In this document: in pieces, positions 1,834-26,110 of the stretch
Layout: each line of letters starts with the position of its first letter
How positions within the stretch are numbered: the first letter of the stretch is position 1
Origin: Devosia riboflavina
GTDB taxonomy: Bacteria; Pseudomonadota; Alphaproteobacteria; Rhizobiales; Devosiaceae
DNA: 64,000 bases
Direction of reading: 5' to 3'
Assembly (NCBI RefSeq): GCF_000743575.1
Contig: NZ_JQGC01000026.1
Coordinates: forward strand, 1-64,000
Made by a program: the position numbers and the translations under genes
The notes under the pieces: generated by a model
What the model saw: the letters and a program-made list of their open reading frames with translations, nothing else
Told to the model about the DNA's origin: nothing
Database searches by the model: none

Positions 1834-1963
1834 GGCCAACAACTCCGGAAAACTCCGCACTCTCGCTTACGAAATTGAGCGCGGTTTGTTCGAGATACGC
1901 CAAATGCCGTACACTAACAACTCACACATCAGCCGCAGCCATGGCTCTATTTCGCTCCGCGCA

Positions 1964-3247: not shown

Positions 3248-3591
3248 GCGGGCTCCTCTAAATGCGCCCTGGGGCACCGTAACGTAACCTAGGACAGCTA
3301 TCGCCAAGCCTCGTTCAAATCTTGGCCAACCTGGCAAAAATGCTCAGCGCAGCCGCGCGAGCCGGCATACGCAAGGTGATTTAGTTCAACACTAGCGCTT
3401 GGAAGGCCCTAGCATAGGGTCTTCACCTCGGCCAATGGGCGCGTCTGTTGGCATACAAATTCGCGGTGCCCTACCGCATCGTATAGTGTACAAGGCCAGC
3501 CGGCGTGGCTTGCGAGATAGCGTGTCCGCCATTGCATATGGCCAGCCGCGCGGCGTTCTACCCAATTTAATGGAACGCATCGCCGGAAATA
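3248..3591. promoter_or_regulatory. Divergent intergenic region between polymerase and flippase genes
   Basis: About 340 bases separate the minus-strand polymerase start from the plus-strand flippase start, so promoters for both arms of the polysaccharide locus should lie here. I see no gene and no clear operator, palindrome or JUMPstart-like motif. A plus-strand frame across it (3399-4178) has the composition of a chance frame and runs into the flippase gene in another phase. Confidence 0.4.
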
Positions 3592-8201: not shown

Positions 8202-8208
8202 TAAGCGC

Positions 8209-9405
8209 TTGAAGATCCTCCTCCTCAGCTTCTATCATCCGCCTGACCTGTCAGCTGGCTCATTTCGTGTTGCAGCGCTCATCAAAGCGCTGAACGAGCG
8301 ACTGCCGGCAGAGGCTGAGCTCGATGTCATCACAACGCAGCCTAACAGGTATGCAAGCTTTTCACTCAACGCCCCAACCGTTGAACGGATAGGGCGCGTC
8401 ACTTTTCATCGCGTAACGCTCCCGCCGCATCGCAGTGGCATCATCGACCAGTCTCGCGCCTTTGCGGCCTATCTGCGCGGGGTGTGGACGATTACTCGCC
8501 GCAAGCAATATGACCTCGTGGCAGCGACCTCATCGCGGTTGATGACCGCGGCGCTGGCGGCAGGACTGTCGGCCACCAAACGCGCGCCCCTTTATCTCGA
8601 CCTTCGCGATATCTTTGTCGATACAATAAATGACCTGTTCCCCGGCTGGATTGCTGGGCTCAGCGTTGGTCCATTCTCGATCGTGGAGCGGCTAACGATT
8701 GGCCGTGCCACCGTAGTCAATCTGGTGTCTGGCGGATTTGAGCCCTACTTTGCCAGGCGTTACCCAAGAAAGCGCTTTACCTTCCACACCAATGGCATCG
8801 ATGAAGAGTTCTTGGGCCTGCCCGCGGGCCGTCCATCGGATCGTGAAGGGCGGCCGTTGACCGTCCTTTACGCTGGCAATATTGGAGAGGGTCAAGGACT
8901 GCACCTAATCCTGCCGGGCCTCGCGCTACGGCTTGCTGCAAAAGTACAATTCCGGATTCTGGGCGACGGCGGGCGACACGACATACTTCAATACGAACTT
9001 GCCAAGCAGAATGTCACAAATGTCGAAGTGCTCCCACCGGTACCGAGACGTACGTTGCTCGATGAATATGCGCGCGCCGACGTGCTGTTCCTTCATCTGA
9101 ACGATGTAGAGGCCTTCAAAAAGGTGTTGCCATCCAAGCTCTTCGAATACGCTGCAACTGGAAAGCCAATCTGGGCCGGGATGCAGGGCTACTCGGCCGA
9201 TTTTGCTTCCGAGTACATCAGTAATGTTGCACTGTTTGCTCCCTGCGATGCAGAGGGCGCTCTCCGTTCGTTCAAAACGCTCGACTTGACACCGATCGCC
9301 CGTACCGAATTCATAAAGAAGTTCGATCGCCGGGCAATCATGGCATCGATGGCAGATGACATTGTTGGCATCATTGAGAATGAGGACGCTGAGCTGGCAT
9401 TTTAG
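8209..9405 (+). CDS. Glycosyltransferase family 4 protein, WbuB-like
   Basis: 398 residues starting from a TTG seven bases after the heparinase-family gene. The start [20 protein letters not shown] is the common N-terminus of WbuB-type GT4 enzymes, including the PP-x5-GS pattern. The C-terminal donor domain shows [19 protein letters not shown] and [14 protein letters not shown]. WbuB-type enzymes transfer fucosamine-like or other amino sugars to lipid-linked acceptors, but the substrate here cannot be read from sequence. It is followed after a gap of about 160 bases by wecB, in keeping with a glycan containing ManNAc or ManNAcA. Confidence 0.88.
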
Positions 9406-9563
9406 CGAGATCAAGCTCTGGAGTTCTTCCACTGCCCAACCGATGGGCCGATCATAATTTTCCATGGCTGCGACAACGGATCGCGCATTCGATTTTTCTT
9501 GCAGCTCAGGTGAACACCGGCTACCTGCCAACCCTCACGGACGTTAACGATTGTAGGCTGGCC

Positions 9564-10679
9564 TTGAGAAAAATCCTCGTGATCTTTGGCACGCGACCTG
9601 AAGCGATCAAGATGGCGCCAGTTGTCGCCGAGCTGCGCAAGAGCGGAAGCCTTGAGGTCAAGGTATGCGTGACCGCTCAACACCGGCAAATGCTCGACCA
9701 GGTGCTGAACCTCTTTGCTATCGTGCCTGACTTCGATCTCGATGTCATGCGCCCGAACCAGACGCTGGATCAACTGACGGCGCGCGTGCTCATCGGGGTG
9801 GGCGGGGTTCTCGATACATACAAGCCCGATATCGTCCTCGTCCATGGCGATACGACCACAACCCTGGCCGCGTCTCTCGCTGCATTTTACCGAAGAATTA
9901 CGCTTGGGCATGTCGAAGCTGGATTGCGCTCTGGCTCGTTATACTCGCCCTGGCCGGAAGAGATGAACCGGCGCGTTACCACGCTTGCAACGAGCTACCA
10001 TTTCGCCCCGACGGCTAAATCTCGTGAAAATTTACTCGCCGAAGGTATCGCGGCGGAATTGGTCCACGTTACGGGGAACACCGTGATCGACGCGTTGCTG
10101 GCCACGCGGGAAAACCTTGCCGGCCAGACCGAAAAGCTGGAAGAGATGTTCGCCAGATTCCCGTTCCTTAACAGCGGTCGGCGAACGGTACTGGTTACTG
10201 GGCACAGACGTGAGAACTTTGGCGCCGGTTTTGAGAGTATCTGCGCAGCACTTGCACGTATCGTTCACGAACATGATGTGCAAATCGTTTACCCAGTCCA
10301 TCCCAACCCCAATGTGCGGCAGCCGGTGGAGCGCCTCCTTGGCGGCGAAAAGCGGATCTTTCTTATCGATCCGCAAGATTACGAACCCTTCGTCTTCCTG
10401 ATGGAGCATGCCAATTTGATCATCACCGATTCTGGCGGCGTCCAGGAGGAAGCGCCGTCGCTAGGCAAGCCGGTGCTGGTGATGCGCGATACGACCGAAA
10501 GACCCGAAGCCGTCTCTGCAGGAACCGTCATTCTGGTCGGCACCGATGCCGAAAAAATCTATGGTGAGACGACCCGCCTGCTAACCGACAAAAGCCACTA
10601 CGAGACTATGGCACAGGCCATCAATCCTTACGGAGATGGACTTGCCGCAACGCGCATACGCGCGGTCCTGGAGAACTAA
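9564..10679 (+). CDS. wecB: UDP-N-acetylglucosamine 2-epimerase (non-hydrolysing)
   Basis: Interconverts UDP-GlcNAc and UDP-ManNAc in the cytoplasm. Family hallmarks are all present: [16 protein letters not shown] at the N-terminus, [30 protein letters not shown] and [17 protein letters not shown]. The TTG at 9564 gives 371 residues aligned with the family start; a GTG at 9510 would add 18 residues without family support. It abuts wecC with no spacer, so the two enzymes together turn UDP-GlcNAc into UDP-ManNAcA. One active-site stretch reads [13 protein letters not shown], slightly different from the usual motif, but the acidic and basic residues are kept. Confidence 0.93.
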
Positions 10680-11936
10680 ATGCCCAACACCTTCGAAACG
10701 GTCTGTGTATTGGGGTTGGGCTATATTGGCCTGCCCACCGCCTCTGTCATTGCTGCCAACGGCGTGAAAGTTCTCGGCGTGGATGTGCAACAGCGGGTCG
10801 TGGATACGATCAATCGCGGCGAAATCCATATCGTCGAGCCAGACCTCGATGCAGTGACCGCAAGGGCTGTGCAGAAGGGCCTGCTTACCGCGGCGCTCGA
10901 ACCAGGTGAAGCCGACGCTTTCGTCATTGCCGTACCCACGCCGTTCCATGACGACAAGGCTGATCTGGCCTATGTGTTTGCGGCGGGCGCTTCAATCGCG
11001 CCACGACTGCGCAAAGGCAATCTAATCGTCCTTGAATCAACATCTCCGCCCGGCACGACTGAGAAGCTTATCGAACAGATTGCTGCACTTCGGCCAGACC
11101 TGCGCTTCCCCATAGCAACGTCCAGCGATGCAGACGTCTTTGTTGCCTACTGTCCGGAACGCGTTCTGCCAGGCAAGGTGCTGACGGAGTTGGTTGAAAA
11201 TGACCGCGTCATCGGCGGCATCACTAGGGTATGTTCCGAGAAGGCGGTCGCCCTGTATCGTATCTTCTGCAAGGGCGAACTGCTGATCACCAATTCGCGC
11301 ACGGCCGAACTTTGCAAGCTGACAGAGAATGCCTTTCGCGACGTCAATATTGCCTTTGCCAACGAGCTGTCGGCCGTCTGCGAAGAACTGGACATCAATG
11401 TTTGGGAACTGATCAAGCTCGCCAACCACCATCCGCGCGTGAACATCCTGCAGCCTGGCCCCGGCGTCGGGGGCCACTGCATCGCCGTTGATCCCTGGTT
11501 CATCGTCGAGGCCGCTCCGAATGTCGCGCGCCTCATTCGAACCGCGCGCGAAGTCAATGACAGCAAACCAATGCGTGTGATCGACAAGATCAAGCTGGCC
11601 ATCGGTGGGCACAAGGGCGGGCGTCCTCGCATCGCTCTGCTCGGCCTGGCCTTCAAGCCGAACGTGGATGACTTGCGCGAAAGCCCTGCGCTGCAGATTG
11701 CGGAGATTCTGGCCGATCTCGGAAATTCCGACATTGACGTGTCGGAGCCACATATCGATGCGCTGCCAAAAGCGCTTGCCGGTCACGCGCATGTCCAGCT
11801 CGTGGACGATGCGGGCGTTGCGATCGGCAATGCCGATATCGTGGTGATGTTGGTCAATCATCGCGGCTACTACGACATTGCGCCCTCTGACCTAGAGGGC
11901 AAGACGATCATTGATACACGGGGTGTGTGGGCGTGA
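10680..11936 (+). CDS. wecC: UDP-N-acetyl-D-mannosamine dehydrogenase
   Basis: 418 residues of the UDP-glucose/GDP-mannose dehydrogenase family. It performs the two-step NAD-dependent oxidation of UDP-ManNAc to UDP-ManNAcA. An N-terminal Rossmann motif (VLGLGYIGLP) is followed by STSPPGTT. The lysine-containing middle domain has LTENAFRDVNIAFANE, the catalytic cysteine is in GPGVGGHCIAVDPWF near residue 266, and the C-terminal UDP-binding domain has LGLAFKPNVDDLRESP. The ATG directly follows the wecB stop. Its own end overlaps the next start (GTGA), so translation is coupled through three genes. Confidence 0.95.
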   Translation: MPNTFETVCVLGLGYIGLPTASVIAANGVKVLGVDVQQRVVDTINRGEIHIVEPDLDAVTARAVQKGLLTAALEPGEADAFVIAVPTPFHDDKADLAYVFAAGASIAPRLRKGNLIVLESTSPPGTTEKLIEQIAALRPDLRFPIATSSDADVFVAYCPERVLPGKVLTELVENDRVIGGITRVCSEKAVALYRIFCKGELLITNSRTAELCKLTENAFRDVNIAFANELSAVCEELDINVWELIKLANHHPRVNILQPGPGVGGHCIAVDPWFIVEAAPNVARLIRTAREVNDSKPMRVIDKIKLAIGGHKGGRPRIALLGLAFKPNVDDLRESPALQIAEILADLGNSDIDVSEPHIDALPKALAGHAHVQLVDDAGVAIGNADIVVMLVNHRGYYDIAPSDLEGKTIIDTRGVWA

Positions 11937-14059
11937 AGCAGCTACTGGTGCGGTCTGGCAAGGTTTTTGTTCAAGATGTCCCGGCCCCGACGGTTGGCCC
12001 GCGCAACGTCCTTGTTCGGGTTGAGCGCTCCTGCGTTTCCGTCGGCACTGAGATGGCGGGAATCAAGATGTCCGCCCTGCCACTGTACCGGCGCGCTATT
12101 AAACAGCCGCACCATGTTAAGAAGGCGATCCAGATGATGCGCGATCAAGGCGTCGCGCGGGTCTACCGGCAGATCAAGGGCCGCCTCGATGCCGGGCTGC
12201 CGACCGGCTACTCGGCCTCGGGCGTCGTGGTTGAGATAGGCTCCGAGGTCGATGGCATTTCGGTCGGCGACCGGGTTGCTTGTGCGGGCGCAGGCATTGC
12301 AAACCACGCAGAACTCATCGACGTTCCTGTGAACCTGACCGTGCCGGTTCCTGACGATCTCAGCATGGATGCCGCTGCCACGGTCACGTTGGGCGCCATC
12401 GCCATGCAGGGCGTCCGACGTACCAATCCCACCCTTGGCGAAACCGTCGTCGTCGTCGGACTAGGAATTCTTGGCCAGATTACCGCCCAATTACTCGCAG
12501 CCCATGGTTGTCGTGTCATCGGCACCGATGTGGACGGAGAGCGCCTTGAAGTAGCACGCCAGAACGGGCTCGATATCGGGCTCAATGCCGGCGATGGCGA
12601 TTTTGTACAACGCGTAACTAAGCTGACCGATGGCTATGGCGCCGATGCTGTAGTGATTACCGCGGCCTCGCCTTCAAGTGAGATACTGGCCCAGGCCTTT
12701 CAGGCGTGCCGCCGCAAGGCGCGCGTCGTAGTGGTCGGCGATGTCGGGCTCAACATTGCCCGGAACGATATCTATGCCAAGGAACTCGATTTTCTGATTT
12801 CCACCTCCTATGGGCCAGGTCGCTACGACCCCGTTTACGAGGAAGAGGGGCAGGATTACCCGCGCGCCTATGTGCGCTGGACCGAAAACAGGAACATGTC
12901 TGAGTACCTGCGGCTGCTGGCAACCGGCCGCGTTTCGCTCGCCAACATGATCCAGGAGCCGTTCGATATCGACGAGGCGGAAGCCGCCTACTCCAAGCTC
13001 GCCGCGCCAGGCGTCAAGCCGTTGCTGGTCCTGCTCAAATATGCAGATCGCGCCGAAGCCAAGACGACGACACTCAAGCTACAGAGGCCCGCCGCGATCG
13101 ACGGCCGCATCCGCTTGGCTCTCGTGGGCGCAGGCGGTTTTGCCCAAGGCATGCATCTACCCAATATCGAGAGGCTAAAGAGCTCCTATGAACTGCGCAC
13201 CGTTGTGAGCCGCACAGGCCTGTCGGCGCGCACGGCCGCAGAGCGTTTCGGTGCAGCCAATGCTTCGACCAATTACGCAGAGGTCCTAGCAGATCCGGAG
13301 ATCGATCTGGTCCTGATCGCCACGCGACACGACCTGCACGCTGGCATGGTTTTAGAAGCTCTCAAGGCGGGTAAGAACGTCTTCGTTGAGAAGCCGCTGT
13401 CATTGACCGAGGACGAACTGGCCGAGATTGAGGCGTTCTACGCGGAAGTCAAGGACGGGCCCCTGCTGATGACCGGCTTCAACCGGCGGTTCTCGCCGGC
13501 GATCGCCGAGGCCCGCAGGCTTCTGGCCAACCGTACTTCTCCCGTTATCGTCAACTATCGCATGAATGCAGGCTATATCCCTGCGGATCACTGGGTGCAT
13601 GGCCCGCAAGGTGGCGGCCGCAATATCGGCGAAGCGTGCCACATCTACGACCTGTTCAACTCCTTGACTGGGAGTCTGCCGACCGAAGTCCATGCGGTAT
13701 CGATTTCTCCGTCATCCGCCTATTGGCGGCGCGACGACAATTTCGTAGCGACGATCCGCTACGATGACGGCTCAGTCTGCACGCTCACTTACACGGCCAT
13801 GGGAGCCAAGGACTACCCCAAGGAGCGCGCCGAAATCTTCGTCGACGGCAAGGTCATCGCACTGGATGACTACAAGTCGCTCAGCGTCACGGGCGGTGCG
13901 GGTGGATGGAAGGGCACTGTCATCGAGAAGGGCCAGTTCGAAGAACTGCAAGCGCTTGCACAGGCTTTCAAGACGGACGGGCAGTGGCCGATCTCCATGG
14001 ATGAGCAGTTGGCGGCCACTCGCGTCAGCTTCGAAGTTCAGCGTCAACTGGCGCTGTAG
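11933..14059 (+). CDS. Bi-domain oxidoreductase: zinc-type alcohol dehydrogenase fused to Gfo/Idh/MocA
   Basis: 708 residues in two enzymatic halves. Residues 1-370 resemble a medium-chain dehydrogenase (GYSASGVVVEIGSEV, GDRVACAGAG, VVVVGLGILGQI as nucleotide-binding site). From about residue 390 a second Rossmann domain starts (LALVGAGGFAQGMHLP) and continues as a Gfo/Idh/MocA oxidoreductase with the conserved VFVEKPLSL. Fusions of this kind recur in bacterial polysaccharide loci next to heparinase-family and asparagine-synthase genes; the substrate is not established to my knowledge. The GTG at 11933 overlaps the wecC stop; a GTG two codons upstream is possible. It probably oxidises or epimerises a nucleotide sugar or lipid-linked sugar. 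Confidence 0.85.
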   Translation: MKQLLVRSGKVFVQDVPAPTVGPRNVLVRVERSCVSVGTEMAGIKMSALPLYRRAIKQPHHVKKAIQMMRDQGVARVYRQIKGRLDAGLPTGYSASGVVVEIGSEVDGISVGDRVACAGAGIANHAELIDVPVNLTVPVPDDLSMDAAATVTLGAIAMQGVRRTNPTLGETVVVVGLGILGQITAQLLAAHGCRVIGTDVDGERLEVARQNGLDIGLNAGDGDFVQRVTKLTDGYGADAVVITAASPSSEILAQAFQACRRKARVVVVGDVGLNIARNDIYAKELDFLISTSYGPGRYDPVYEEEGQDYPRAYVRWTENRNMSEYLRLLATGRVSLANMIQEPFDIDEAEAAYSKLAAPGVKPLLVLLKYADRAEAKTTTLKLQRPAAIDGRIRLALVGAGGFAQGMHLPNIERLKSSYELRTVVSRTGLSARTAAERFGAANASTNYAEVLADPEIDLVLIATRHDLHAGMVLEALKAGKNVFVEKPLSLTEDELAEIEAFYAEVKDGPLLMTGFNRRFSPAIAEARRLLANRTSPVIVNYRMNAGYIPADHWVHGPQGGGRNIGEACHIYDLFNSLTGSLPTEVHAVSISPSSAYWRRDDNFVATIRYDDGSVCTLTYTAMGAKDYPKERAEIFVDGKVIALDDYKSLSVTGGAGGWKGTVIEKGQFEELQALAQAFKTDGQWPISMDEQLAATRVSFEVQRQLAL

Positions 14060-14111
14060 CCCACGTTCCGGCACGTCCGGGGTTTAATCGCTTTCAAGAG
14101 GCCAAGGTCAT

Positions 14112-16133
14112 ATGTGCGGAATAGTTGGGATTTTTGCCTATGGGCAAGACGGTCTCGTAACACCAGGCCTGATTGAGTCGATGCGCGACTGCATGACCCA
14201 TCGGGGGCCGGATGGCGGCGAGCTGTGGATATCCGAGCGCGCGCACATTGGCTTTGGGCATCGGCGGCTGTCGGTTATCGATCTTTCCACTGCCGCTAAC
14301 CAGCCGATGCCGAACGAAGATGGAAGTGTTTGGATCACCTTCAATGGCGAGATTTACAATCATGCCCCGCTACGCGTCCTGCTCGATCAGGCTGGACACA
14401 GATTCCGTACCGACCATTCCGACACAGAAGTCCTTGTCCACGGCTTCGAGGAATGGGGCATAGACGGGCTGCTCGACCGGATTTCAGGCGACTATGCCTT
14501 TGGGCTTTACGACAACCGTGACGATTCGCTTTTGGTCGTTCGTGACAGCATTGGCGTCAAGCCGATCTATTTCGGCGTCTTCAACGGCCAGTTTTGCTTC
14601 GCATCCGAGATCAAGGCGCTGCTTGCTCATCCTCATGCCGAGCGGGATATCGATCCGTTCGCCATGGTCCACTATTTGAGTTTTCTGACGACGCCAGCAC
14701 CGATGACCATGTTCAAGGGCATCTATAAAGTGCCTGCCGGCTGCTATCTCAAAGTATCCTCAACTGGCCAGATCAGCATGCACCGGCACTATGATGCCGC
14801 GCCGGGCAAGGGCATCCGTCCCGAGGAGACCGCCGGCCTCAGCGAGAAGGCACTGGAGGACTTCTATGTCAACGGCATCCGCACGCGGCTGCGTGGTGCT
14901 GTAGAGCGCCGGATGATGTCGGACGTGCCTTTCGGTGTATTCCTGTCGGGTGGCATTGATTCCTCGACGAATGTTGCGTTGATGAGCGAATATACCGACC
15001 TACCACTCAATACCTTCACCATCGGCTTCAAGGATCACCAGCACCTCAACGAGCTAGAATATGCCAATATCGCGGCCAAGCGCTTCAACACCAAGCACCA
15101 TCAGGTGCTGATCGATGAAGCTGACATGATTGGCTATCTCGAGAACCTCATCCACCACCAGGATGAACCGCTCGCCGATTGGGTCTGCATTCCGCTCTAT
15201 TTCGTTTCCAAGCTTGCTCGAGATAACGGCATGACCGTGGTGCAGGTCGGCGAAGGCTCGGACGAGCAGTTTTCCGGCTATGCCAGCTATATGGGCTATC
15301 AGCGACTCTATCGAAAATACTGGCAGCCCTTCCGCCAGCTGCCCAAAGGCCTCCAGCGCATGGCCGCCGGGATGGCAGTTGGCGCATCGGCAATCCGCCC
15401 GCAATGGGAGACCTACGCGGACATCATCGATCGCGCGGCGCGCGATCGGGAGCATTTCTGGACCGGAGCCATGGTGTTCTGGAATACGGCCAAGGACCGG
15501 CTGGTTCGCTATGAAGCTCTGGGGTCGCCCGATCATCACAAGACCATGGTAGAAGCTGGAGTGCTGGATCCTAAGTATCTCGTTCCCGACAGCTTCAATG
15601 TGATCAACTCGTTCTTTGCACCTTTTGATGCCAAGTTTCCCGATAGCGAACCGCTTACGCGCATGATCCATTCCGAGTTTCGACTGCGTCTGCCCGAACT
15701 GCTCCTGATGCGAGTGGACAAAATCTCGATGTCAGTCTCTCTGGAAGCACGCGTGCCGTTCCTTGACCGTGACCTTGTCGATTTCAGCTTCGACATTCCG
15801 GAAGATTGGAAGACCAAGAACGGGGAGGCCAAGTACGTCCTCAAGAAGGCCGTCGAAGGCATGATCCCTGACGAACTCATCTATCGAAAAAAGATGGGCT
15901 TCGGCGCGCCAATGGCAGACTGGCTGCGCGGCGGCTTCGGGGAACGCGTGGAGCGCTCGATTCTAGGCTCGGGCCTTCTCAAGCGCGGACTTTTCAAGAT
16001 CGACTACATTAACAGGCTGTTCGCAGACCACCGCTCGCTGCGGGCCGACGCTAGCTTGCCGATCTGGACGCTTTATAACCTCACTGCCTGGTACGACTAC
16101 TGGATCGAGGGCAAACAGGCACGCGGGTATTAG
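14112..16133 (+). CDS. asnB: Asparagine synthase-like glutamine amidotransferase
   Basis: 673 residues, class II amidotransferase. Cys2 (MCGIVGIF) is the glutaminase nucleophile and fixes the start at 14112. FNGEIYNH and the later synthetase PP-loop SGGIDSST (near residue 280) are intact, as are VGEGSDEQFSGY and a C-terminal KMGFGAPMADWLR. The residues needed for both half-reactions are therefore visible. AsnB-like enzymes in capsule and exopolysaccharide loci often amidate uronic acids instead of making asparagine. With wecBC next door, amidation of ManNAcA is a fair inference, though simple asparagine synthesis cannot be excluded. Confidence 0.88.
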   Translation: MCGIVGIFAYGQDGLVTPGLIESMRDCMTHRGPDGGELWISERAHIGFGHRRLSVIDLSTAANQPMPNEDGSVWITFNGEIYNHAPLRVLLDQAGHRFRTDHSDTEVLVHGFEEWGIDGLLDRISGDYAFGLYDNRDDSLLVVRDSIGVKPIYFGVFNGQFCFASEIKALLAHPHAERDIDPFAMVHYLSFLTTPAPMTMFKGIYKVPAGCYLKVSSTGQISMHRHYDAAPGKGIRPEETAGLSEKALEDFYVNGIRTRLRGAVERRMMSDVPFGVFLSGGIDSSTNVALMSEYTDLPLNTFTIGFKDHQHLNELEYANIAAKRFNTKHHQVLIDEADMIGYLENLIHHQDEPLADWVCIPLYFVSKLARDNGMTVVQVGEGSDEQFSGYASYMGYQRLYRKYWQPFRQLPKGLQRMAAGMAVGASAIRPQWETYADIIDRAARDREHFWTGAMVFWNTAKDRLVRYEALGSPDHHKTMVEAGVLDPKYLVPDSFNVINSFFAPFDAKFPDSEPLTRMIHSEFRLRLPELLLMRVDKISMSVSLEARVPFLDRDLVDFSFDIPEDWKTKNGEAKYVLKKAVEGMIPDELIYRKKMGFGAPMADWLRGGFGERVERSILGSGLLKRGLFKIDYINRLFADHRSLRADASLPIWTLYNLTAWYDYWIEGKQARGY

Positions 16134-16140
16134 GCAAGAC

Positions 16141-18141
16141 ATGGGACAGGGTCAGATCATGGGCCGCCTTAGGCGGCTCGCCACGAAATCTCCAGCCTAT
16201 ATTGTTCGCCGCCTAGCCCAGGAAGCGCGCATGGAGTCCGAGAGGGTGCTCGGTCCCGCCTTCGCCCGCTCAATAAGCGGCAAGAGGCTTGCGCGTTGGG
16301 GCGGTCATGACAATGTCGACGCTCTATGGCTCGATCTGGCAGCACGTCCCTACCCCGCCCATGTTCAGGGATTTGACCGCGCCGACTATGACAAGACCTT
16401 TCCCGGGAGCTCCGCCCAAATTTTGGCGGCTGCGGACCGGGCCATGGCCCATCAGATCGACTTGCTGGGCACGGGGCCGGTGCATCTGGGCGAGGATATA
16501 GACTGGCTCAAGGATTTCAAAACCGGTGACCGTTGGCCGGTCGCATTTTGCCGGTCTATTGACTATGTAAACAAGGGCCGTCCCAGTGATGTTAAGGTGC
16601 CCTGGGAGATATCGCGACTTCAATGGCTTTTGCCGGTAGGACAGGCCTATGTGCTGACTGGCGGCGACGAGCGCTATGCCCAGTCAGTCAGGGCGGTGAT
16701 CGAGAGTTGGATCGCGGCCAATCCATATGGATATTCCGTCAACTGGTCCTGTACGATGGAGCCGGCACTTCGACTGCAAACCTGGACTTGGCTCTTCCAT
16801 ATATTCGCGAAATCCAAGGCTTGGGCTGATGTTGGTTTTCGAGACAGGTTCCTGTCGTCGCTCTACCTACATGGGGCCTTTACTGAAATTCACATCGAGC
16901 GCGCCAGCATAAATGGCAATCACCTGACGGCGGATGCTGCGGGCCTTGTCTTCGCCGGCTTGTTTTTCAGGGGCATTGGCAGTGCCGACAGATGGGCAGC
17001 GGAAGGCTGGCGCACCCTCAACGAGGAGATCGTCAAACAGGTCCATCCAGATGGCGTTGATTTCGAGGCTTCCGTTCCCTACCACCGCCTTGTCGCGGAA
17101 TTGTTCGTCATGCCGGCTCGCTACAGAAAAGCCGGCGGCCTTGTCGTCGAAGCAACGTACCGCGACAGGCTTGAGGCAATGGGCCGCTTCGTAGCCGCCT
17201 ACTCCCGCCCTGATGGCACCAGCCCCCATTGGGGCGATGCAGATGACGGTCGTGGCCTTCCGCTTGGCACCCAGTCGCTCGGCGACCACCGCTATCTCTG
17301 TGCGCTTATAGGCGACACGCTGGATGACACACTCCTGATCGACCTTGCCCCGCCGAAATCGGATGAAATTGCCTGGCACGGCGCGCGTCAAAGTTCTTCT
17401 GGCCAAATCCCGCTCACGTCACAATCGTTCCGCGACGGAGGCGTCTACATCCTCGCGGGCGGCAATAACCATGTGTTTGTTGACTGCGGCCCAGTCGGTT
17501 TGGCAGGACTCGGTGGGCATGGGCATAACGATGCCCTGTCTTTTGAAGCCTGGCTCGATGGCCAATTGCTCGTGGCCGATCCCGGCTCGTACGTTTACAC
17601 GGCAGATTTCGACGCCCGTAACCGCTTTCGGTCGACCGCCAGCCACAATACACCGCAGGTGGACGGCGCGGAAATCAATCGGCTACATGCTTCGGACAAT
17701 CTGTGGAACCTGCACGAGGACGCCAAGGCCGAGGCCGTGGATTTTTCGTTTGACGGCAACAGCGCAAAATTCGTCGGCCAACACTTCGGTTACACGCGCC
17801 TGGCTGATCCGGTGACCGTTCAGCGGACCCTTGCAATAGACTTTGCCAATGCACGCCTCTCTATTCTTGACGAAATCAAATGCGGCCAAGAGCATGAACT
17901 TTTGATCCCGTTATATCTGGCAGCCGGGGTTGAAGCTAAACAGTTTGATGATGGCTACGAGTTGACCACAGCTGGGAGACGCTTCGTGGTCAATGCAACG
18001 GGTGTCGGTTGGCAATCTTCTATACAGGATGCATTCTTGTCGCCGTCCTACGGCGTGACAGTTCCGTCCAAAAGGATAGTGTGGGCAAAACGAGCAATTG
18101 GCGTTGAGCAACTATCCTTAATTCTCTCACCGGTGCATTAA
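16141..18141 (+). CDS. Heparinase II/III family protein, second copy
   Basis: 666 residues from 16141; an ATG at 16159 behind a purine-rich stretch is also possible. It has an N-terminal alpha-helical toroid and then the heparinase II/III domain with GLGGHGHNDALSFEAW near residue 458, VADPGSYVY and ASHNTPQVDG. It is longer than the copy at 6543 and its signature differs, so this is not a recent duplication. The gene follows asnB by seven bases and precedes the priming transferase. A function in processing or degrading the uronic-acid-containing polymer is likely; no secretion signal is evident. Confidence 0.85.
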   Translation: MGQGQIMGRLRRLATKSPAYIVRRLAQEARMESERVLGPAFARSISGKRLARWGGHDNVDALWLDLAARPYPAHVQGFDRADYDKTFPGSSAQILAAADRAMAHQIDLLGTGPVHLGEDIDWLKDFKTGDRWPVAFCRSIDYVNKGRPSDVKVPWEISRLQWLLPVGQAYVLTGGDERYAQSVRAVIESWIAANPYGYSVNWSCTMEPALRLQTWTWLFHIFAKSKAWADVGFRDRFLSSLYLHGAFTEIHIERASINGNHLTADAAGLVFAGLFFRGIGSADRWAAEGWRTLNEEIVKQVHPDGVDFEASVPYHRLVAELFVMPARYRKAGGLVVEATYRDRLEAMGRFVAAYSRPDGTSPHWGDADDGRGLPLGTQSLGDHRYLCALIGDTLDDTLLIDLAPPKSDEIAWHGARQSSSGQIPLTSQSFRDGGVYILAGGNNHVFVDCGPVGLAGLGGHGHNDALSFEAWLDGQLLVADPGSYVYTADFDARNRFRSTASHNTPQVDGAEINRLHASDNLWNLHEDAKAEAVDFSFDGNSAKFVGQHFGYTRLADPVTVQRTLAIDFANARLSILDEIKCGQEHELLIPLYLAAGVEAKQFDDGYELTTAGRRFVVNATGVGWQSSIQDAFLSPSYGVTVPSKRIVWAKRAIGVEQLSLILSPVH

Positions 18142-18267
18142 GACGTTGGCGGGGCGCGTAACCGCCGTCGTTACAGCAGCATTTCGCGAGTCGAACTACC
18201 AAGCGACGGATCTGAGACATCGCTCTTAACTCCAGCCTCAAAAAACATGGTGGTTTGAACACTCCAA

Positions 18268-19584
18268 ATGAAGCACGGTGCTAAGAAATCAAAGCCCACA
18301 ACCTCGCAAGAATTTGCTGAAAGCTTGTCTCAGGTAGCGGAGCAAGGTGGAAATTCGCGCCGCTACAAATATTTCCGCGATATGCGAACATTTTTGGTCC
18401 CGGTCTTACTATCGGCGGCTATCCAAATCTCCACCTATAGTTTTTTTTTCTTCCGATCCAGTCGCAGTGATACGGGAAATTTTCTGACCGTTGCATTTGT
18501 AATGACATTTGCCATTGGCATTACGGCCACTATCCTTACAGCGTTTCGACACCGAGAGTCGCCCATAATTTCCGCTATCGTAATCAATACGATAGTTTTT
18601 AGTTTTGCAGTCTCCTTTTTGTCTGCTGCCCGTATTCAGGTCAGCTATCTGGGATTGGTGTTATCCTATCCTGTCGCAATGGCCATAATGGCTGCCGCCA
18701 ATGCAAGATTTCACCGCCAGTTGGGGGGTAAGGTCGCAATACTCAACTTCGATCAAGCTGACATTGTGCAGGCCCTTTTCCCTGGCGCGGTACTAATAAG
18801 AGACCCGGATGCAACACTCGATGAAATCGACTATGTCCTGATCGATCCTGACGAACATCATTCTATGTATTGGTCGCCGCTACTAACGAAATGCTATCTG
18901 GGAAATGTAGAGATACTACCTTGGACAAGATTCAGTGAAATCCAGCATCGTAGAGTTGATGTAGGCTCCTTTGAGATCTCCAATGTTGCCTATACACCCG
19001 GGCAGTTCGCCTATGCTCGGCTAAAGCGTTTTGTGGACGTCGCAGCAGTGGTTGTGACTCTGCCCATAACTCTTCCACTCGGCGCCCTTGTTGCGTTGTA
19101 CATATTTGCAGTTGACCGGGGACCGGTCCTGTTCGTGCAGCACCGCCGCGGCTTTGCCGGGCGGCCGTTCCGAATGTACAAGTTCAGGACGATGTACCGT
19201 GGCCAAGAGGGAGGAGCTACTAGCGACAAGGACAAGCGCATAATGCCTGGGTGCGCGTTTATTCGCCGCGTGCGGCTCGATGAGCTACCACAGCTGTATA
19301 ATATCTTGGTCGGAGACATGAGCCTCATCGGACCACGACCGGAATCCATTGAGCTAGCCCAGTGGTACGAGAGAGAGATACCGGAATATGTCCATCGGCT
19401 ACTGGTGCTGCCCGGGGTAACTGGATGGGCCCAAGTCAACAGCGGGTATACGAGCAATCCAGACGAAGCACGTATCAAGCTTGCTTACGATCTCTACTAC
19501 ATAAAAAACATATCTATTGATTTGGACATGATTACAATTTTCAAGACGGTTAGAACCGTTCTTCTTGGAACGGGAGCTCGTTGA
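18268..19584 (+). CDS. Undecaprenyl-phosphate sugar phosphotransferase (WcaJ/WbaP-type)
   Basis: 438 residues. Four membrane segments lie in the first 150 residues, then a cytoplasmic stretch, a re-entrant helix (VAAVVVTLPITLPLGAL) and the conserved catalytic domain of bacterial sugar transferases: VLFVQHRRGF, FRMYKFRTM, RLDELPQLYNILVGDMSLIG, RPES and VTGWAQVN. It transfers a sugar-1-phosphate to undecaprenyl phosphate and so starts repeat-unit synthesis. It ends the plus-strand arm. The 5' half is AT-rich with homopolymeric T runs, unlike the preceding genes, suggesting separate acquisition. The start at 18268 has no clear ribosome site, so a later start is possible. Confidence 0.88.
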   Translation: MKHGAKKSKPTTSQEFAESLSQVAEQGGNSRRYKYFRDMRTFLVPVLLSAAIQISTYSFFFFRSSRSDTGNFLTVAFVMTFAIGITATILTAFRHRESPIISAIVINTIVFSFAVSFLSAARIQVSYLGLVLSYPVAMAIMAAANARFHRQLGGKVAILNFDQADIVQALFPGAVLIRDPDATLDEIDYVLIDPDEHHSMYWSPLLTKCYLGNVEILPWTRFSEIQHRRVDVGSFEISNVAYTPGQFAYARLKRFVDVAAVVVTLPITLPLGALVALYIFAVDRGPVLFVQHRRGFAGRPFRMYKFRTMYRGQEGGATSDKDKRIMPGCAFIRRVRLDELPQLYNILVGDMSLIGPRPESIELAQWYEREIPEYVHRLLVLPGVTGWAQVNSGYTSNPDEARIKLAYDLYYIKNISIDLDMITIFKTVRTVLLGTGAR

Positions 19585-20930: not shown

Positions 20931-21824
20931 TTACTTCCATACGTCGAGATCAACGTGCTCGATGTAGCGCGCTACGACGTTCACGGACTTCCACCCGCCG
21001 GCCCGCATGATCTGTGGCAAGCCAAACCCATTGATCGTCAGCTGCTGCGCCGCTCCGACCCTCAGGGAATGGCCAGACACCCTCTCGCTCATGAGGGCAT
21101 CGATACCGGCGCGATCGCAGAGCTTCTTTAGGACACGGCCCACGATCAGTGGTTCGAGATAGAGTGCCCGCACCCGCTCGCCATAGACGGGGCGGAGTAG
21201 AGGTCCTCGCGAAATTCCCGCTTCCTTTAGCCAGCGGCGGAAGAGGTCGCTGGACGCTTTGGACAGTTTTGCAGTGCGTCCGGCGCCCTCAGGATCATTC
21301 TTGGCTCGACGGACCAGCACCGTGTAACGGCCGTCGGATGTTGGACTGAAGTCGTCGATGGAGAGGGCGACGAGCTCACCGCGCCGGCAAAGCGTGTCAA
21401 AACCCACGCTGACTAGGACCTTGTCCCTGAGGCCAATGAGATCATCGCCGCAGACGGCAAGCAATTGATCGCGCAGACTTGCAGTTACGCCATGGGCCTG
21501 TTTGGGGCGGGATGGTTGCGCCCGGCGCACGCGCCGCATGGCAAGTTGGACTTCCTCGCTTTGCGTCGGATCGCCGAGGTCGCAGAGATGGTGAATGCGA
21601 CGCAAGGCGCAGAGCCGGCGTTTCACCGTGTTTGGCTTAAGGCGCATGCCTTCGGCATCGATATAGGAAACGATGGTGGTCGACGCCGCTGGCAGCGCTT
21701 TGAGGCGCTTCTTGCGGCACCATCTGAGGAATGCTCCGAAATCGCTGCGGTAGGACCGCAGCGTATGTTCGGAATAGGCGCCATCGAGGCGGCGCAGGGT
21801 CTTACGCCAGGGAACCATCGACAT
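20931..21824 (-). CDS. Tyrosine recombinase/integrase
   Basis: 297 residues. An N-terminal core-binding SAM-like domain (SEHTLRSYRSDFGAFLRWC) is followed by the catalytic domain. The catalytic set is visible: Arg in CRRGELVAL, Lys in RRAKNDPEG, the box GHSLRVGAAQ (H-x-x-R), Trp in MRAGGWKS in place of the second histidine, and the nucleophile Tyr in VARYIEHVD. It should cut and rejoin DNA through a 3'-phosphotyrosine link. Its start overlaps the upstream AAA+ protease gene by 23 bases, so it belongs to that operon and is not a stand-alone integrase at an island edge. The partner site is unknown. Confidence 0.9.
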   Translation of the reverse strand: MSMVPWRKTLRRLDGAYSEHTLRSYRSDFGAFLRWCRKKRLKALPAASTTIVSYIDAEGMRLKPNTVKRRLCALRRIHHLCDLGDPTQSEEVQLAMRRVRRAQPSRPKQAHGVTASLRDQLLAVCGDDLIGLRDKVLVSVGFDTLCRRGELVALSIDDFSPTSDGRYTVLVRRAKNDPEGAGRTAKLSKASSDLFRRWLKEAGISRGPLLRPVYGERVRALYLEPLIVGRVLKKLCDRAGIDALMSERVSGHSLRVGAAQQLTINGFGLPQIMRAGGWKSVNVVARYIEHVDLDVWK

Positions 21825-23868
21825 CCTCCTCCTCGAGGTCTTGATTTAGTGGCCTTTGCAGCAGGACATGGCTTGCCGCTTCGAGGTGGAACCTGTCGGC
21901 CTCGCCGCCTGCCCTCTCCGCCCTCGGTAGCTCTGGAGGCTCATCTTGAACCCGTCCCATGGGTGCGGAAACGCTGCGGGCGCTGTCGAGGGCGGCATCC
22001 GCCAAAGCTTCCAGCCACTGCTGGGCCGAGAACACCTTCTCACTGATCAGTCGTTCAGCAAGGGTGAGGACCAGATCGCGATCCTGCCGCACGATAGCGC
22101 GAGCGCGATCGAGCGCCTGCCATAGCTTCTTGCCGATATCGCGGCGCAGATCCGCATGCCCGGCAATGGTGCCAAGCACATGCCGCGAGGCGAGCCCCTC
22201 GTAAAGCCCCTGGGTCTCATAGGCCGAGAGGAGGAGCTGGGTGGCTTCGGCAAGATCGCTTTCGGCCCCCGAATTGGCCCCCTGCCCCACGACCATGTCG
22301 GCGGCGCGGCCGCCGAGTGCCAGGGTGACATAGTCCATCACCTGGTCCCAGGTCGGCATCAGGGTCGTCTTACGGGCGACGGTACGGCCTGAGGACGCAC
22401 CCGAGGGAATGATCGATACCAATTCCACGACAAGGCCCAATCTATGGGCGACGAGGGCATGGCCGATCTCGTGAATGGCGACGGTCCGAATGTCGGCCGC
22501 GGTGCGGTCTTCCCGCGGCACCACCTGGGCAAGAATGTCGCCGAGGAGAAGCGAACGCTTTTCAGCGCGTGCCAGTCCCCGAGCCTCCTTGACCCAGCCC
22601 TCGATCCTGGCGGGCGTTGCCCCCTGCCCCAGCCTTCCGAGCCGGCTGAGATCGGTTTGGGCGAGATCATCGCCGAGGTAATGGCGCAGCACGGCAATGA
22701 CCTCTTCTTCGCTCTCCGGCGGCAGCACGGAAATACGCTCCTGCAGACGCCCGGGCCGCACGAGCGCATCGTCGAGGCGATTGTAGTAATTGGTGGCGCC
22801 AAGAAGGAGGATGGGCCGGCCCGACTTTCGCATCGTGTCGATCTCGGTCAGGATCAGGGTCACGACCGGTGTCCACCAGTCGCGACCGCGATTGTCGATA
22901 CTGGCCCGGTTCGGGATGGCATCCAGTTCATCGAGCAACCCAACCGCGGGAGCGCGCGACACGAGCGTTTCGAAGAATTTCCGCGCATTGCGCGATACCC
23001 CGCCCAATGCCCCATCGCCCGTGGCAAACCACGAGCCTACACTGGTCGGCACGAAGGCCCAGCCGCTCGATTGCGCAAGGCTCTCGGCGATCAGGGTCTT
23101 GCCGGTGCCGGGCGGACCTTCGAGCACGGCCGGGATCAGACGATCGGCGCCAAGATCGCCGGTGCTGACAGCCCTAAGATCGGCCAGAACCTGGTCGGCC
23201 CAGGCCCGAACATTGGCCGTCAGCGGCAGATCGCTGAGGACTGGGGCGGTATAGGTTTGCGATGGTGGGGCATTCCGATCGATCCGGATCGCGCGGCGGA
23301 GATTGCGCACGCATTGCTTTGCGCTCATGCCGGGGCGCAGCAGCGTTGCAATGAGGTCGATCTCGAGATCGGCCATTGAAGAGGTCACGCCGCGGGCAAT
23401 GGACCCTGTCATCCTTCGGATCGCCCGGCGCAGCAAGGCCGTCGTGAGGGCCGGAATGACGATGGTGACATCGACGCCGGCCAGCACATCTTCATGGAGG
23501 AGATCGCCCGGATTCTGGGTGATATAGAGCACGCTCCGTCCCGTCTGTAGCCATTGCAGCTCCTCCTTGCCGACCCGCTGTGACCCCTTGCCGGATTTGT
23601 ACCGCTCGGCGACACCGCGCACGGCCGGGGCATCGGCCATGGTCTTGATGGCCCGGCTCATCAGCGGGATCCATTCGGCATTGGGCACGACGAGCACGAT
23701 GACCGAAGGATGCCGCTTGACGAGAGCCTGCATCTTCTTGGTGAAAGCCGCCTCGAGGACGGTCTTGGCAAGGACGACGCCGGCATCCTTGTCCGAACGG
23801 GGTTTGAAATTCTCCGGGACGTCGTCTTCCCGCTCACTGGTGTCGTTGGTGTCATCAAGACCAAACAT
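21802..23868 (-). CDS. Soluble FtsH-like AAA+ zinc metalloprotease
   Basis: 688 residues from the ATG at 23868 (MFGLDDTNDT). The AAA+ module has Walker A EGPPGTGKT (about 250-258), Walker B VGLLDELDA (309-317), sensor-1 Asn in LLLGATNYY (360) and the arginine-finger region ALVRPGRLQER. The peptidase module has HEIGH (466-470) and a third zinc ligand in GAESDLAEAT (Asp about 538). All FtsH active-site residues are kept, but the two N-terminal membrane helices of FtsH are absent. They are replaced by about 240 residues of soluble sequence of unknown fold. It should unfold and degrade proteins in the cytoplasm. It overlaps the recombinase gene and follows a GIY-YIG gene, an unusual setting. Confidence 0.85.
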   Translation of the reverse strand: MFGLDDTNDTSEREDDVPENFKPRSDKDAGVVLAKTVLEAAFTKKMQALVKRHPSVIVLVVPNAEWIPLMSRAIKTMADAPAVRGVAERYKSGKGSQRVGKEELQWLQTGRSVLYITQNPGDLLHEDVLAGVDVTIVIPALTTALLRRAIRRMTGSIARGVTSSMADLEIDLIATLLRPGMSAKQCVRNLRRAIRIDRNAPPSQTYTAPVLSDLPLTANVRAWADQVLADLRAVSTGDLGADRLIPAVLEGPPGTGKTLIAESLAQSSGWAFVPTSVGSWFATGDGALGGVSRNARKFFETLVSRAPAVGLLDELDAIPNRASIDNRGRDWWTPVVTLILTEIDTMRKSGRPILLLGATNYYNRLDDALVRPGRLQERISVLPPESEEEVIAVLRHYLGDDLAQTDLSRLGRLGQGATPARIEGWVKEARGLARAEKRSLLLGDILAQVVPREDRTAADIRTVAIHEIGHALVAHRLGLVVELVSIIPSGASSGRTVARKTTLMPTWDQVMDYVTLALGGRAADMVVGQGANSGAESDLAEATQLLLSAYETQGLYEGLASRHVLGTIAGHADLRRDIGKKLWQALDRARAIVRQDRDLVLTLAERLISEKVFSAQQWLEALADAALDSARSVSAPMGRVQDEPPELPRAERAGGEADRFHLEAASHVLLQRPLNQDLEEEDVDGSLA

Positions 23869-23944
23869 GGCATGGCTCCGCTGGCGGATCGGCACGAAGC
23901 CCGATCCGCATGAATGAGAAAAAGCTGGAAAGAGTTGGTGGGCC

Positions 23945-25300
23945 TCAGGCCGCGAGGGAGCCCTGGTCCCCGGCATCGGGATCGAACGCGCCGTCGATCG
24001 GCTGCCAGCCGCCGCGCCCCTGGCCTTTGGAACCGAGCACGAAATGCATGGCCCCACTGCCCGAACGGAAGGCGATGTCGCGTGTCAGCACATAGTGCTC
24101 GCCGGTGTCGGAGAATTCGAGAACGCCCGAGGACAGCCAGGCCGCCCGCAGATAGCTCGCCGAGGCATTGGCGCTGGCGACCGTGTCGAGCCGGATGTCG
24201 GAGCCGGCCAGGAGCAGCCAGTCGTCCTCGTCCCGTTTGGCCGCAAGAGCGATGAGATTGTGTCCGAAGGAGAGTTCGAAGACCTCGCCCTCAGGCGGGT
24301 GGTCGAAGGGACGGATGGGGCCAAGCTGACCGCGCTCGGCCCGGGGCCCGGCCAGTGCCAGGCGCCGGCTCATATTGACAAAGAGATGCCCGTCCCGCGC
24401 CAGAGCCTCGCAGGCAAGACCCGCCATGACATTGAGCTGGTCATAGCGTTCGGGTGTGACCACTGCGCCACCCGGCGTGCCATTAACGAGCCGGACTTCC
24501 TTGGCGGCCGAGACGCGCATGTGGAGGAGCCGTTCGAGTGCGGCGGCATCGGCATCGTCGAGCCCGTCATTTTCGTCGGTAATGGTGATGATGGTGTCGA
24601 CGTCTTCGATGGGTTGGGCCCCGCTTGCAACCCGTCGCCCCACGATCGACCCCACGCCCACATAGGCGCTGGTGTCGGAAAGGAGGATATAGACCCCTGC
24701 CCTTTGCAGGTCGTCAAGACTTGCAAAGGATCGGCGAGCCTCCCCGCTTCCCACATGGATGCGGGGGCGCAGGGGACTGACTGGCAAAAGCGCAAGACCT
24801 TCCGGCACCGGGTCGTCACCATGGTCTGATGAGAGCGCCACCACGGCGTGATGTTCGATTGTGCCCGGGGACTGGCCGTCATGCTGTTCCGGCCATGCGA
24901 TGGCACCTTGCCCGGCATCGAGCGGGCCCTGGGGCTTGCGCGGCACGAGCGCGCCGCTCGGCGCTGCAGGATCGGGATCGTCGGGAGAGGGATGTCCGGC
25001 GCGCGTCAACAGCGCATTTTCGTCGAGAATGCCGGCCTGGAGTTCGGCCGAGATAATGCCGGCTTTGATGAGGCTCAGAATGGCCCCGACGGGATCGGCA
25101 TGCCCATCGAGCGCGTCCATGACCTCGCCGATCGTTGCTGTGCCGCTGAGGTCGATTTCGCGCAGGATCAGAACCTGGTCGGTCGCTGAAATGAGCGGAT
25201 GCCGGACGAGCCCGGCTTCGAGCGCGAGGGCGCTGATCTGGGATTGGATGAAAAGGGACTTGTTCGACGCGCTGGCGCCGTTAGAAGACGTATAGGTCAT
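23945..25300 (-). CDS. GIY-YIG nuclease-like protein with DUF4357 domain
   Basis: 451 residues from the ATG at 25300. Residues 15-95 are helical and resemble a winged helix (TIGEVMDALDGHADPVGAIL). A Pro/Ala-rich linker runs to about 170. Residues 200-275 match a GIY-YIG fold: GVY, eight residues, then YVG, Arg in IVGRRVASG, a helix with Glu in ALERLLHMR and Asn in RLVNGTPGG, so the catalytic set looks complete. Residues 345-435 match DUF4357 (WLLLAGSDIR, SYLRAAWLSSGVLEF, FVLGSKGQGRGGW), which often follows GIY-YIG domains. Seventy-six bases downstream lies the AAA+ protease gene. It may nick or cut DNA; the substrate is unknown. Confidence 0.7.
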   Translation of the reverse strand: MTYTSSNGASASNKSLFIQSQISALALEAGLVRHPLISATDQVLILREIDLSGTATIGEVMDALDGHADPVGAILSLIKAGIISAELQAGILDENALLTRAGHPSPDDPDPAAPSGALVPRKPQGPLDAGQGAIAWPEQHDGQSPGTIEHHAVVALSSDHGDDPVPEGLALLPVSPLRPRIHVGSGEARRSFASLDDLQRAGVYILLSDTSAYVGVGSIVGRRVASGAQPIEDVDTIITITDENDGLDDADAAALERLLHMRVSAAKEVRLVNGTPGGAVVTPERYDQLNVMAGLACEALARDGHLFVNMSRRLALAGPRAERGQLGPIRPFDHPPEGEVFELSFGHNLIALAAKRDEDDWLLLAGSDIRLDTVASANASASYLRAAWLSSGVLEFSDTGEHYVLTRDIAFRSGSGAMHFVLGSKGQGRGGWQPIDGAFDPDAGDQGSLAA

Positions 25301-25924
25301 GTTGCCTCTGTGGATGCAGAAGTGATGTGGCTCAGGCTGACGGGGTGGTTTGCGAGACCCCTCGTCGGCCGCCCGTTGCGAGCAAGCAGCCTTTCCTGAC
25401 ATCGGGCGAGTTCCGCGCCGACGCTTTCAAAATCAGGATCCGTTTTCAAAAGGCAAGGGGCGCTGGGCCGACTTGCTTGTTCTTCATTAACGGTTTCCTG
25501 GTTCCTCGATAATTTGCATTGAATTGAACGGAATTTCGAGCGCTTGCGCCCGTCCCCCAGGGGCGGAGGTCGGTCCTTTTTTCGAGCCGTTTTGGGGGTC
25601 TGTCAGGCCCGGCGTTATTGGGGATGCGCGATAATGCCGGGAAGCCGGAATTAAGTATGAGCCAACCTTCATGGATGGCCTCATCATCGCTTCGGTGTTC
25701 AACCTCAGCCGCAATGGCGTGGCTGCGCCCGATCCCGTCACCTGGTGGAAGTCCGCGCCGGTCGAAAGGTCAATGTGCAGGGCGCCGAAATCGAAGGTGT
25801 CATTAACAGCAATACCTTTGCTGTCCGTGGCGCCAACCTATCTCGTCGCTGAAGTCGTCGCCAGTTCCGATGCGGCGCTGATCGGCAAGACGCCGGTGCA
25901 GATCTCCACCCTGTCCGCCTCGCT
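25301..25924. other. Upstream region of the GIY-YIG operon, with decayed sequence
   Basis: More than 600 bases without an intact gene. The operon promoter should be in the first 200 bases, but I cannot point to a sure -35/-10 pair. Around 25738-25853 a plus-strand frame reads HLVEVRAGRKVNVQGAEIEG and stops, weakly like the repeating DUF5666 fold. Preceding codons lie in another phase, as in a frameshifted relic. I treat this stretch as gene debris at the right edge of the accessory segment. Confidence 0.45.
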
Positions 25925-26110
25925 CGGCCTCGACTACGATGATGGCGAGGCTTGTTGGGCCGACCTCGTTCCATATGGCGGCGACCACATCGGAGATGAA
26001 CGCCGAGTAGACGATGATCAGGATGGATCCGCGGTCCAGGATCTGTGTCACGAGCGAATGGCGGCCGATGAAATTGCCGACCAGCGCAGGAGCATTTGCC
26101 CACGATAAGC
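25925..26110 (-). pseudogene. Fragment of a bile-acid:sodium symporter (BASS/YfeH type)
   Basis: A minus-strand stretch translates to LVGNFIGRHSLVTQILDRGS followed directly by ILIIVYSAFISDVVAAIW. The DRGSI-LLVVYTAFS pattern is a landmark of the YfeH/SLC10-7 branch of bile-acid:sodium symporters. The reading phase changes just upstream (ILVSLIVG lies in another frame) and the sequence after WNEVGPTSLAIIVVEAERG becomes non-membrane-like. Neither the N-terminal two thirds nor the end of a symporter is present. It is a short frameshifted relic, probably left by the rearrangement that brought in the neighbouring operon. Confidence 0.6.

Follow-up and report, generated by a model that had tools for sequence, protein, structure and literature searches.

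What does an operon do that joins a GIY-YIG-like protein, an FtsH-type protease and a tyrosine recombinase? The question is raised by a locus of the soil bacterium Devosia riboflavina that lies within a stretch of 64,000 nucleotides, here called the window. A reading of this DNA from its letters alone (hereafter, the sequence-only reading) had recognised the three genes and knew of no named system of this kind. Likewise, we found no paper describing the arrangement, which we call GIY-M41-INT, nor any described cassette of its kind, among open-licence PMC full texts. In our opinion the arrangement is real, recurrent and undescribed in that literature; its architecture is well supported, and its biochemical role is one that we infer.

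The three genes are best explained as an operon at the left end of an integrative island of polysaccharide genes that carries a recombinase and an element-encoded regulatory protease, a reading to which we give a probability of about one half. That the operon belongs to an island is, taken by itself, highly probable; within that island the protease would have a regulatory role. The sequence-only reading had proposed, as one of its options, a mobile element with a regulatory protease. The first half of this proposal fits well with a discrete block of homology, a bounded and inverted end motif, the intact catalytic residues of the recombinase, co-inheritance and the relaxase of some copies; the second half is kept here as a conditional. 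Loci, genomes and contigs are cited below by our own handles (L, G and C numbers).

Architecture of the operon and its proteins

The operon occupies the minus strand and encodes GIY (a winged helix-turn-helix, or wHTH, a GIY-YIG-like middle part and DUF4357), M41 (the FtsH-type protease) and INT (the tyrosine recombinase), in that order (Table 1). The open reading frames reproduce the unit as first described, including the 76 bases between GIY and M41 and the overlap of 23 bases between M41 and INT. This overlap of the M41 stop with the INT start is 4 bases long in 7 of the 12 loci that hold the whole operon. The GIY frame is open from 25402 to 23945 (485 aa), with a likely start at the ATG at 25300, where a 93%-identical relative in G038 begins (alignment with L048). 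M41 and INT have 688 and 297 aa, respectively. The genes and their order stand as the sequence-only reading gave them, but what it described is only the end of a larger island.

Table 1. Features of the window around the operon
Feature	Position	Strand	Basis or remark
Window polysaccharide genes, putative cargo	694..19584	+	cargo role by analogy with five two-ended islands
INT, Cre-like tyrosine recombinase	20931..21824	-	Pfam, alignment, profile match
M41, soluble FtsH-type AAA+ zinc protease (AAA + M41)	21802..23868	-	Pfam, alignment, model
GIY (wHTH + GIY-YIG-like middle + DUF4357)	23945..25300	-	frame open to 25402
Leader, left end to GIY start	25301..25635	-	conserved in L048
Left end motif GCATTATCGCGCATCCCC	25620..25637	-	edge of homology to G038 element
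Gene fragment, TonB-dependent siderophore receptor-like (by eye)	25639..25937	+	whole gene in G046

A complete AAA+ zinc protease and a tyrosine recombinase had been claimed, and both are confirmed, each as complete, by Pfam matches and by catalytic residues that are intact in the alignments. For M41, the matches to AAA (1.8e-21) and Peptidase_M41 (2.8e-14) are both over the cut-off. All 32 aligned sequences, the window's among them, have K257, E314, R371, R374, H466, E467, H470 and D538; Walker A and B, the arginine fingers, HExxH and the third zinc ligand are all present. The AlphaFold model (mean pLDDT 78.5) places an alpha/beta domain of roughly 230 residues, predicted fairly confidently, at the N-terminus, where the membrane part would be. 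The model thus makes it likely that M41 has lost its membrane helices, as first suggested, but a hydrophobic stretch at 128-146 keeps this short of proof: it is the most hydrophobic 19-residue stretch of the protein (mean 2.04) and falls on a strand and a helix of the modelled alpha/beta domain.

INT matches Phage_integrase (3.5e-16) and a SAM-like N-domain. An alignment of 13 sequences, the window's included, shows no variation at R147, R148, K175, H252, R255 and W278, and has Y287 in at least 90% of them. Among solved structures, profile comparison places INT closest to Cre and derivatives of Cre. It should be noted that close relatives of INT are broken or truncated in 3 of the 12 operon loci (L050, L071 and L072).

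GIY is the least readily classified of the three proteins. Its single Pfam match is the C-terminal DUF4357 predicted earlier, at 33.3 bits and hence under the cut-off of 38.4. The GIY-YIG domain is not matched in Pfam, and no fold match emerged. Y238, Y247, G249, R257 and E290, which we take to be the GIY-YIG motif, are shared by at least 90% of the sequences in an alignment of 23, the window's included; the GIY of L101 has lost them. In addition, PADLOC assigns GIY to the candidate defence family PDC-S14 (E 4e-22), and the NCBI name of a plasmid relative supports the assignment. Because of these residues, this match and this name, we regard GIY as a GIY-YIG-like protein that probably cuts DNA, so the original call is retained in this weaker form. 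Its N-terminal winged-helix part is supported by profile comparison, which shows it to be homologous to the wHTH of the ~210-residue partner protein of a sister M41 class (see below). Against the PDB, GIY gave no match by sequence, nor with its low-confidence structure model; that model was too weak for structural conclusions, and a structure of GIY based on it was dropped.

Distribution and inheritance

Chance neighbourhood of the three genes is ruled out by their co-occurrence. Close INT relatives (identity of at least 43% along most of the protein, counting truncated or broken copies but not fragments shorter than about 130 residues) occur in 17 of 75 Devosia genomes, and in 12 of these 17 M41 and GIY lie directly upstream in the same order, far above chance. 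In the fetched regions around INT of the remaining five, neither GIY nor M41 was found. M41 relatives (E <= 1e-30) are more widespread, with 96 matches in 45 of the 75 genomes. We fetched 55 regions around M41 matches and 5 around INT matches, together with 3 regions of the window's own genome and the window itself. These hold 64 M41 copies with a frame of at least 1400 bp (63 rows in the tree). GIY lies upstream of 32 copies and INT downstream of 12, and those 12 have both.

A sample of 397 genomes from across the order contains 16 with the INT family (E <= 1e-75). Twelve of these are from outside the genus, and all 12 were fetched: one (L233, in a different genus of the family) carries the operon in the order GIY-M41-INT, and 11 have INT with neither M41 nor GIY; several of these loci contain a small divergent HTH gene. 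The three plasmid loci viewed likewise have INT without GIY and M41. In Roseicyclus marinus (L147), of another order, M41 is followed by INT after 48 bases and GIY is absent. For P0001 and P0003, no confirmed match was found among viral contigs; the phage matches of M41 span only the AAA/M41 core.

The trees of M41, GIY and INT give the same groups: L073, L071 and L072; L061, L066, L070, L055b and L062b (moderately supported in the INT tree, 88/85); and the window, L048, L049 and L050. Thus, the unit has largely been inherited together. Partners have also been exchanged, since in the INT-less loci L059 and L064 GIY groups with that of the window and M41 does not. The presence of INT requires 3 changes on the M41 tree, at least 2 of them forced by strongly supported branches.

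The same data bear on another reading, akin to the defence option of the sequence-only reading, namely that GIY and M41 form a self-standing anti-phage or toxin-antitoxin-like module, in which the protease restrains or releases the nuclease, and that this module is cargo for which INT is only the carrier. GIY-M41 pairs are without INT in 20 of 32 cases, so the pair can act without it. To this may be added the PDC-S14 match, which is to a family whose own status is only that of a candidate. One pair lies near a TIR-domain-like gene group (L005:117-6388, by eye) and another beside ABC-three-component genes on a Bosea plasmid. Defence proteins often diverge fast, and M41 does diverge much faster than INT: between groups, identity to the window is 32-37% for M41 and 61-67% for INT. 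However, the INT-containing operon is old and its genes have for the most part passed down together, M41 adjoins INT without GIY in Roseicyclus, and proteases of the sister class stand in loci with Tns genes and without GIY. Because the pair is common without INT, this module reading keeps about one third of our belief.

The window's own genome has two more GIY-M41 pairs (C1 and C15), and further M41 copies at C12 and at the end of C15 and start of C23, all without this recombinase; its only other INT match is 31% identical. The M41 gene pieces at the two contig ends (G000:C15:259050-259430 and G000:C23:42-740; 65% and 53% identical to M41 of the window) are possibly one copy split by assembly.

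Probable ends of the island

The second line of evidence concerns the boundaries of the element. The window and L048 match at 91.6% over exactly 20932..25635; beyond these limits their DNA is unrelated. Homology between L055b and L062b, and between L055b and L070, ends at about the same points, i.e., at a motif ~300 bp upstream of GIY and at the INT stop codon. In 10 of 12 loci the bounded motif, GGCRTTATCGATCATTTGCC, precedes GIY at the point where the elements cease to be homologous. Its position relative to GIY is -337 in the window, -338 in L048, -315 in L055b, -320 in L062b, -313 in L066, -313 and -414 in L070, -273 in L073, -299 in L071, -464 in L072 and -1022 in L061; 8 of the 10 loci thus have a copy within -273 to -338. 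The motif, written as (G)GC[GA]TTATCG..CATT.GC(C), has nothing conserved past its outer edge in 27 collected ends; as the ends were chosen by the motif itself, only this non-conservation outside the motif counts as evidence.

To find the right ends, we scanned 21-60 kb on the downstream side of INT in 8 of the 12 operon loci, using for each a matrix that excluded the left end of that locus; the other four (L061, L066, L071 and L072; three of these genomes seen in parts) were left out of this 60-kb search. In these 8 stretches (412 kb), 6 inverted sites and no direct ones score at least 20. They lie in 5 of the 8 stretches, 24-48 kb downstream of INT: at ~48.4 kb in L048, 33.7 kb in L062b, 34.7 kb in L070, 24.0 and 44.0 kb in L049 and 25.5 kb in L055b. 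At the same score, no site was found in 2.47 Mb of Markov sequence or in 2.54 Mb strand-bases of other loci; at a score of at least 18 these controls gave 1 and 2 sites, respectively. An inverted partner was not found in L073 (60 kb), L050 (40 kb) or the window (21 kb, to the contig edge). In L066 the inverted copy lies 3.7 kb downstream of INT, giving a compact element of 8.2 kb. With a matrix built from right ends only, 6 of 12 INT loci score at least 15 compared with 4 of 52 other M41 loci (p 0.002); among GIY-M41 pairs lacking INT, 3 of 20 do so. Genome-wide, an exact form of the motif has 99 sites in the 75 genomes, compared with 14 for a reversed control; 44 of the 99 fall in the 12 genomes that have the complete operon. 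L234 belongs to another genus, and there a copy was found 411 bp ahead of an INT with neither GIY nor M41.

The homology block had at first suggested an element of exactly three genes (4.7 kb). This was dropped in view of inverted end copies beyond the polysaccharide genes, so that the variable cargo begins where homology breaks off at the INT stop. Since the window begins with the first base of its contig, the right end of its island lies outside the window. We sought it at the motif sites of the own genome on C7, C15, C18 and C25, and by eye no polysaccharide continuation was recognised there. No direct att repeats were found near INT.

Might the motif instead be a regulatory site, or the end of some other element, with the three genes as mere neighbours in a variable region? 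The motif is also found away from INT. Three loci are without a clear copy beside the operon: upstream of GIY it is absent in L049 and only weakly resembled at -303 in L050, and L233 has no clear motif. Nor did an empty site for L062b appear among the matches listed for 75 genomes, where its two flanks were not adjacent and lay at separate places. Against these points stand the outer boundary of the motif, its coincidence with the edges of homology and the inward-pointing pairs or nested sets that stand out in some operon genomes, and we consider such a reading distinctly improbable. Nested or tandem motifs, as in G024 and G029, mean that the pairing of ends is not unique. Tandem end motifs that look like stacked insertions occur at L271:7443 and 7489 (~46 bp apart) and at L070:9489 and 9590 (~101 bp).

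Cargo, relaxases and flanks

The sugar genes of the window include a DegT aminotransferase, a glycosyltransferase, a UDP-GlcNAc 2-epimerase and a UDP-sugar dehydrogenase, and the region also contains an asparagine synthase, a heparinase II/III, a sugar transferase and others. By analogy with the five islands that have two ends, these genes may be the cargo of the window's island. Ten island and ten window ORFs were chosen by hand for Pfam, the other island genes being named by eye. All ten ORFs chosen from the five islands are of polysaccharide type (glycosyltransferases, Polysacc_synt_2/3, UDP-sugar dehydrogenase, Wzt, DegT and NeuB), as are 6 of the 10 from the window, or 7 with the asparagine synthase; the remaining three are one without a match, an oxidoreductase fusion and an autotransporter fragment. 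The last, a beta-domain fragment at 19621-20262, lies between the sugar transferase and INT. INT without GIY or M41 is also seen near polysaccharide genes in other Alphaproteobacteria, at L210 and L212 (Roseobacter plasmids), L234, L235, L240, L241 and L244.

In L055b and L062b, a MobA_MobL relaxase (Pfam) and a small gene lie ahead of the right motif, and relatives of both are recognised by similarity at the right motif of L066. G018 has another relaxase ~20 kb from INT. On the opposite side, the TonB-dependent receptor-like fragment of ~300 bp lies directly outside the left end of the window's island, and the chromosome is collinear with G047 from 25935.

Cre inverts DNA between inverted sites. 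With sites inverted and INT resembling Cre, INT could be mainly an invertase serving phase variation of surface sugars and not an integrase, the more so as INT is often near polysaccharide genes in other genera (by annotation or eye). We consider this unlikely. The outer flanks are wholly different between elements, which inversion alone would not give, and some elements have a relaxase; moreover, we recognised no polysaccharide gene within the compact L066 element, nor, by eye, at the INT loci L211, L236-L238 and L243.

Related proteases near Tn7-like genes

The M41 tree (63 rows) has two clades, one of 35 rows, among them all 33 GIY rows, and one of 28. Loci of the latter, the sister class, contain a TnsB-like gene in 14 cases, and Pfam confirmed TnsA-like, TniB/TnsC and TniQ proteins on representatives. 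Thus, related proteases adjoin two unrelated DNA-mobility machineries. TnsB, TnsC and TniQ were not found at the locus of the window or at any other GIY-M41 locus that was fetched. Several sister loci have the ~210-residue partner upstream of M41; its wHTH matches that of GIY (hhalign 95.8%, E 7e-9) and has a weak match (59.5%) to the C-terminal part of TnsA-like proteins.

An FtsH-type protease lies upstream of Tn7-like genes in the own genome (L016:8853-18999, on C12) and in L077-L083, L093, L099, L100 and L106, some with the wHTH partner. Each of these loci has TnsB, and many have TnsA-like, TnsC and TniQ genes. Two M41 genes stand in tandem in L084, L094, L095 and L096; in L094-L096 the second is preceded by the ~210-residue wHTH partner.

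Proposed mechanism and significance

Within the island reading, the Cre-like INT would recombine the end motifs, leading to integration, excision or inversion of the island. The GIY-wHTH protein would bind island DNA as a regulator and perhaps nick it. M41 would unfold and degrade a DNA-bound partner, either INT after recombination or the GIY-wHTH protein acting as a repressor, and so switch recombination off or on. There are two precedents: ClpX dismantles MuA, and ImmA destroys ImmR on ICEs. That M41 acts on the element's own recombination proteins is a serious possibility, to which we give somewhat less than an even chance.

More generally, these loci suggest that some mobile elements encode a protein-degrading machine of their own. 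The soluble FtsH-type family may be a built-in remodelling machine of mobile DNA, serving Cre-like recombinases in one branch and Tn7-like transposases in the other, by way of a wHTH adaptor or repressor with a swappable second domain. We offer this wider view tentatively, as slightly more doubtful than the role proposed for M41 itself. If it is true, the family would be an element-encoded equivalent of the host's ClpX-MuA step. An AAA+ protease beside a Cre-like recombinase and Tn7-like transposases would make disassembly of recombination complexes testable with element-encoded parts.

The cargo is of interest in its own right. Surface polysaccharides help to decide phage sensitivity, biofilm formation and host contact, and the movement of whole sugar clusters between bacteria is, to our knowledge, poorly known. 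For such transfer, the islands provide concrete ends together with a recombinase and a control module that can be tested.

Comparison with known systems

With FtsH and other M41 membrane proteases, M41 shares the AAA and M41 core and all catalytic residues, and FtsH is the nearest solved fold of its model (Foldseek 8e-23). The N-terminal anchor of true FtsH is probably absent: in place of the membrane and periplasmic part, the model has the soluble alpha/beta domain, and M41 scores 127 on FtsH_fam, far under the cut-off of 600.

Compared with the Cre recombinase of phage P1, INT shares the R-K-H-R-W-Y residues and matches Cre at 4e-38 and its derivative Tre at 4e-39 (XerD, 2e-9). Unlike Cre, INT is chromosomal and stands in an operon with a protease and a GIY gene; its putative sites are inverted and 24-48 kb apart, and their motif is presumably not loxP.

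PDC-S14 of PADLOC shares with GIY the GIY-YIG/DUF4357 part. Judging by its name, we take it to be a single-gene candidate, whereas GIY also has a wHTH and is paired with M41.

Like the MobA/MobL integrative and mobilizable elements, three of the islands have a recombinase at one end and a relaxase at the other. The former have direct att repeats, in contrast to the inverted ends of the islands, which in addition carry polysaccharide cargo and a protease-nuclease pair in the recombinase operon, and in which a relaxase was often not found.

Finally, where ClpX acts with Tn7-like transposons (CAST) or with Mu, the AAA+ machine is that of the host. Insertion by CAST is improved by ClpX, for which the hypothesis is that it takes the post-transposition complex apart (PMC12326709). 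The sister class of M41 has TnsA, TnsB, TnsC and TniQ nearby. The window operon differs in having no Tns genes and an AAA+ machine that is element-encoded and itself a protease.
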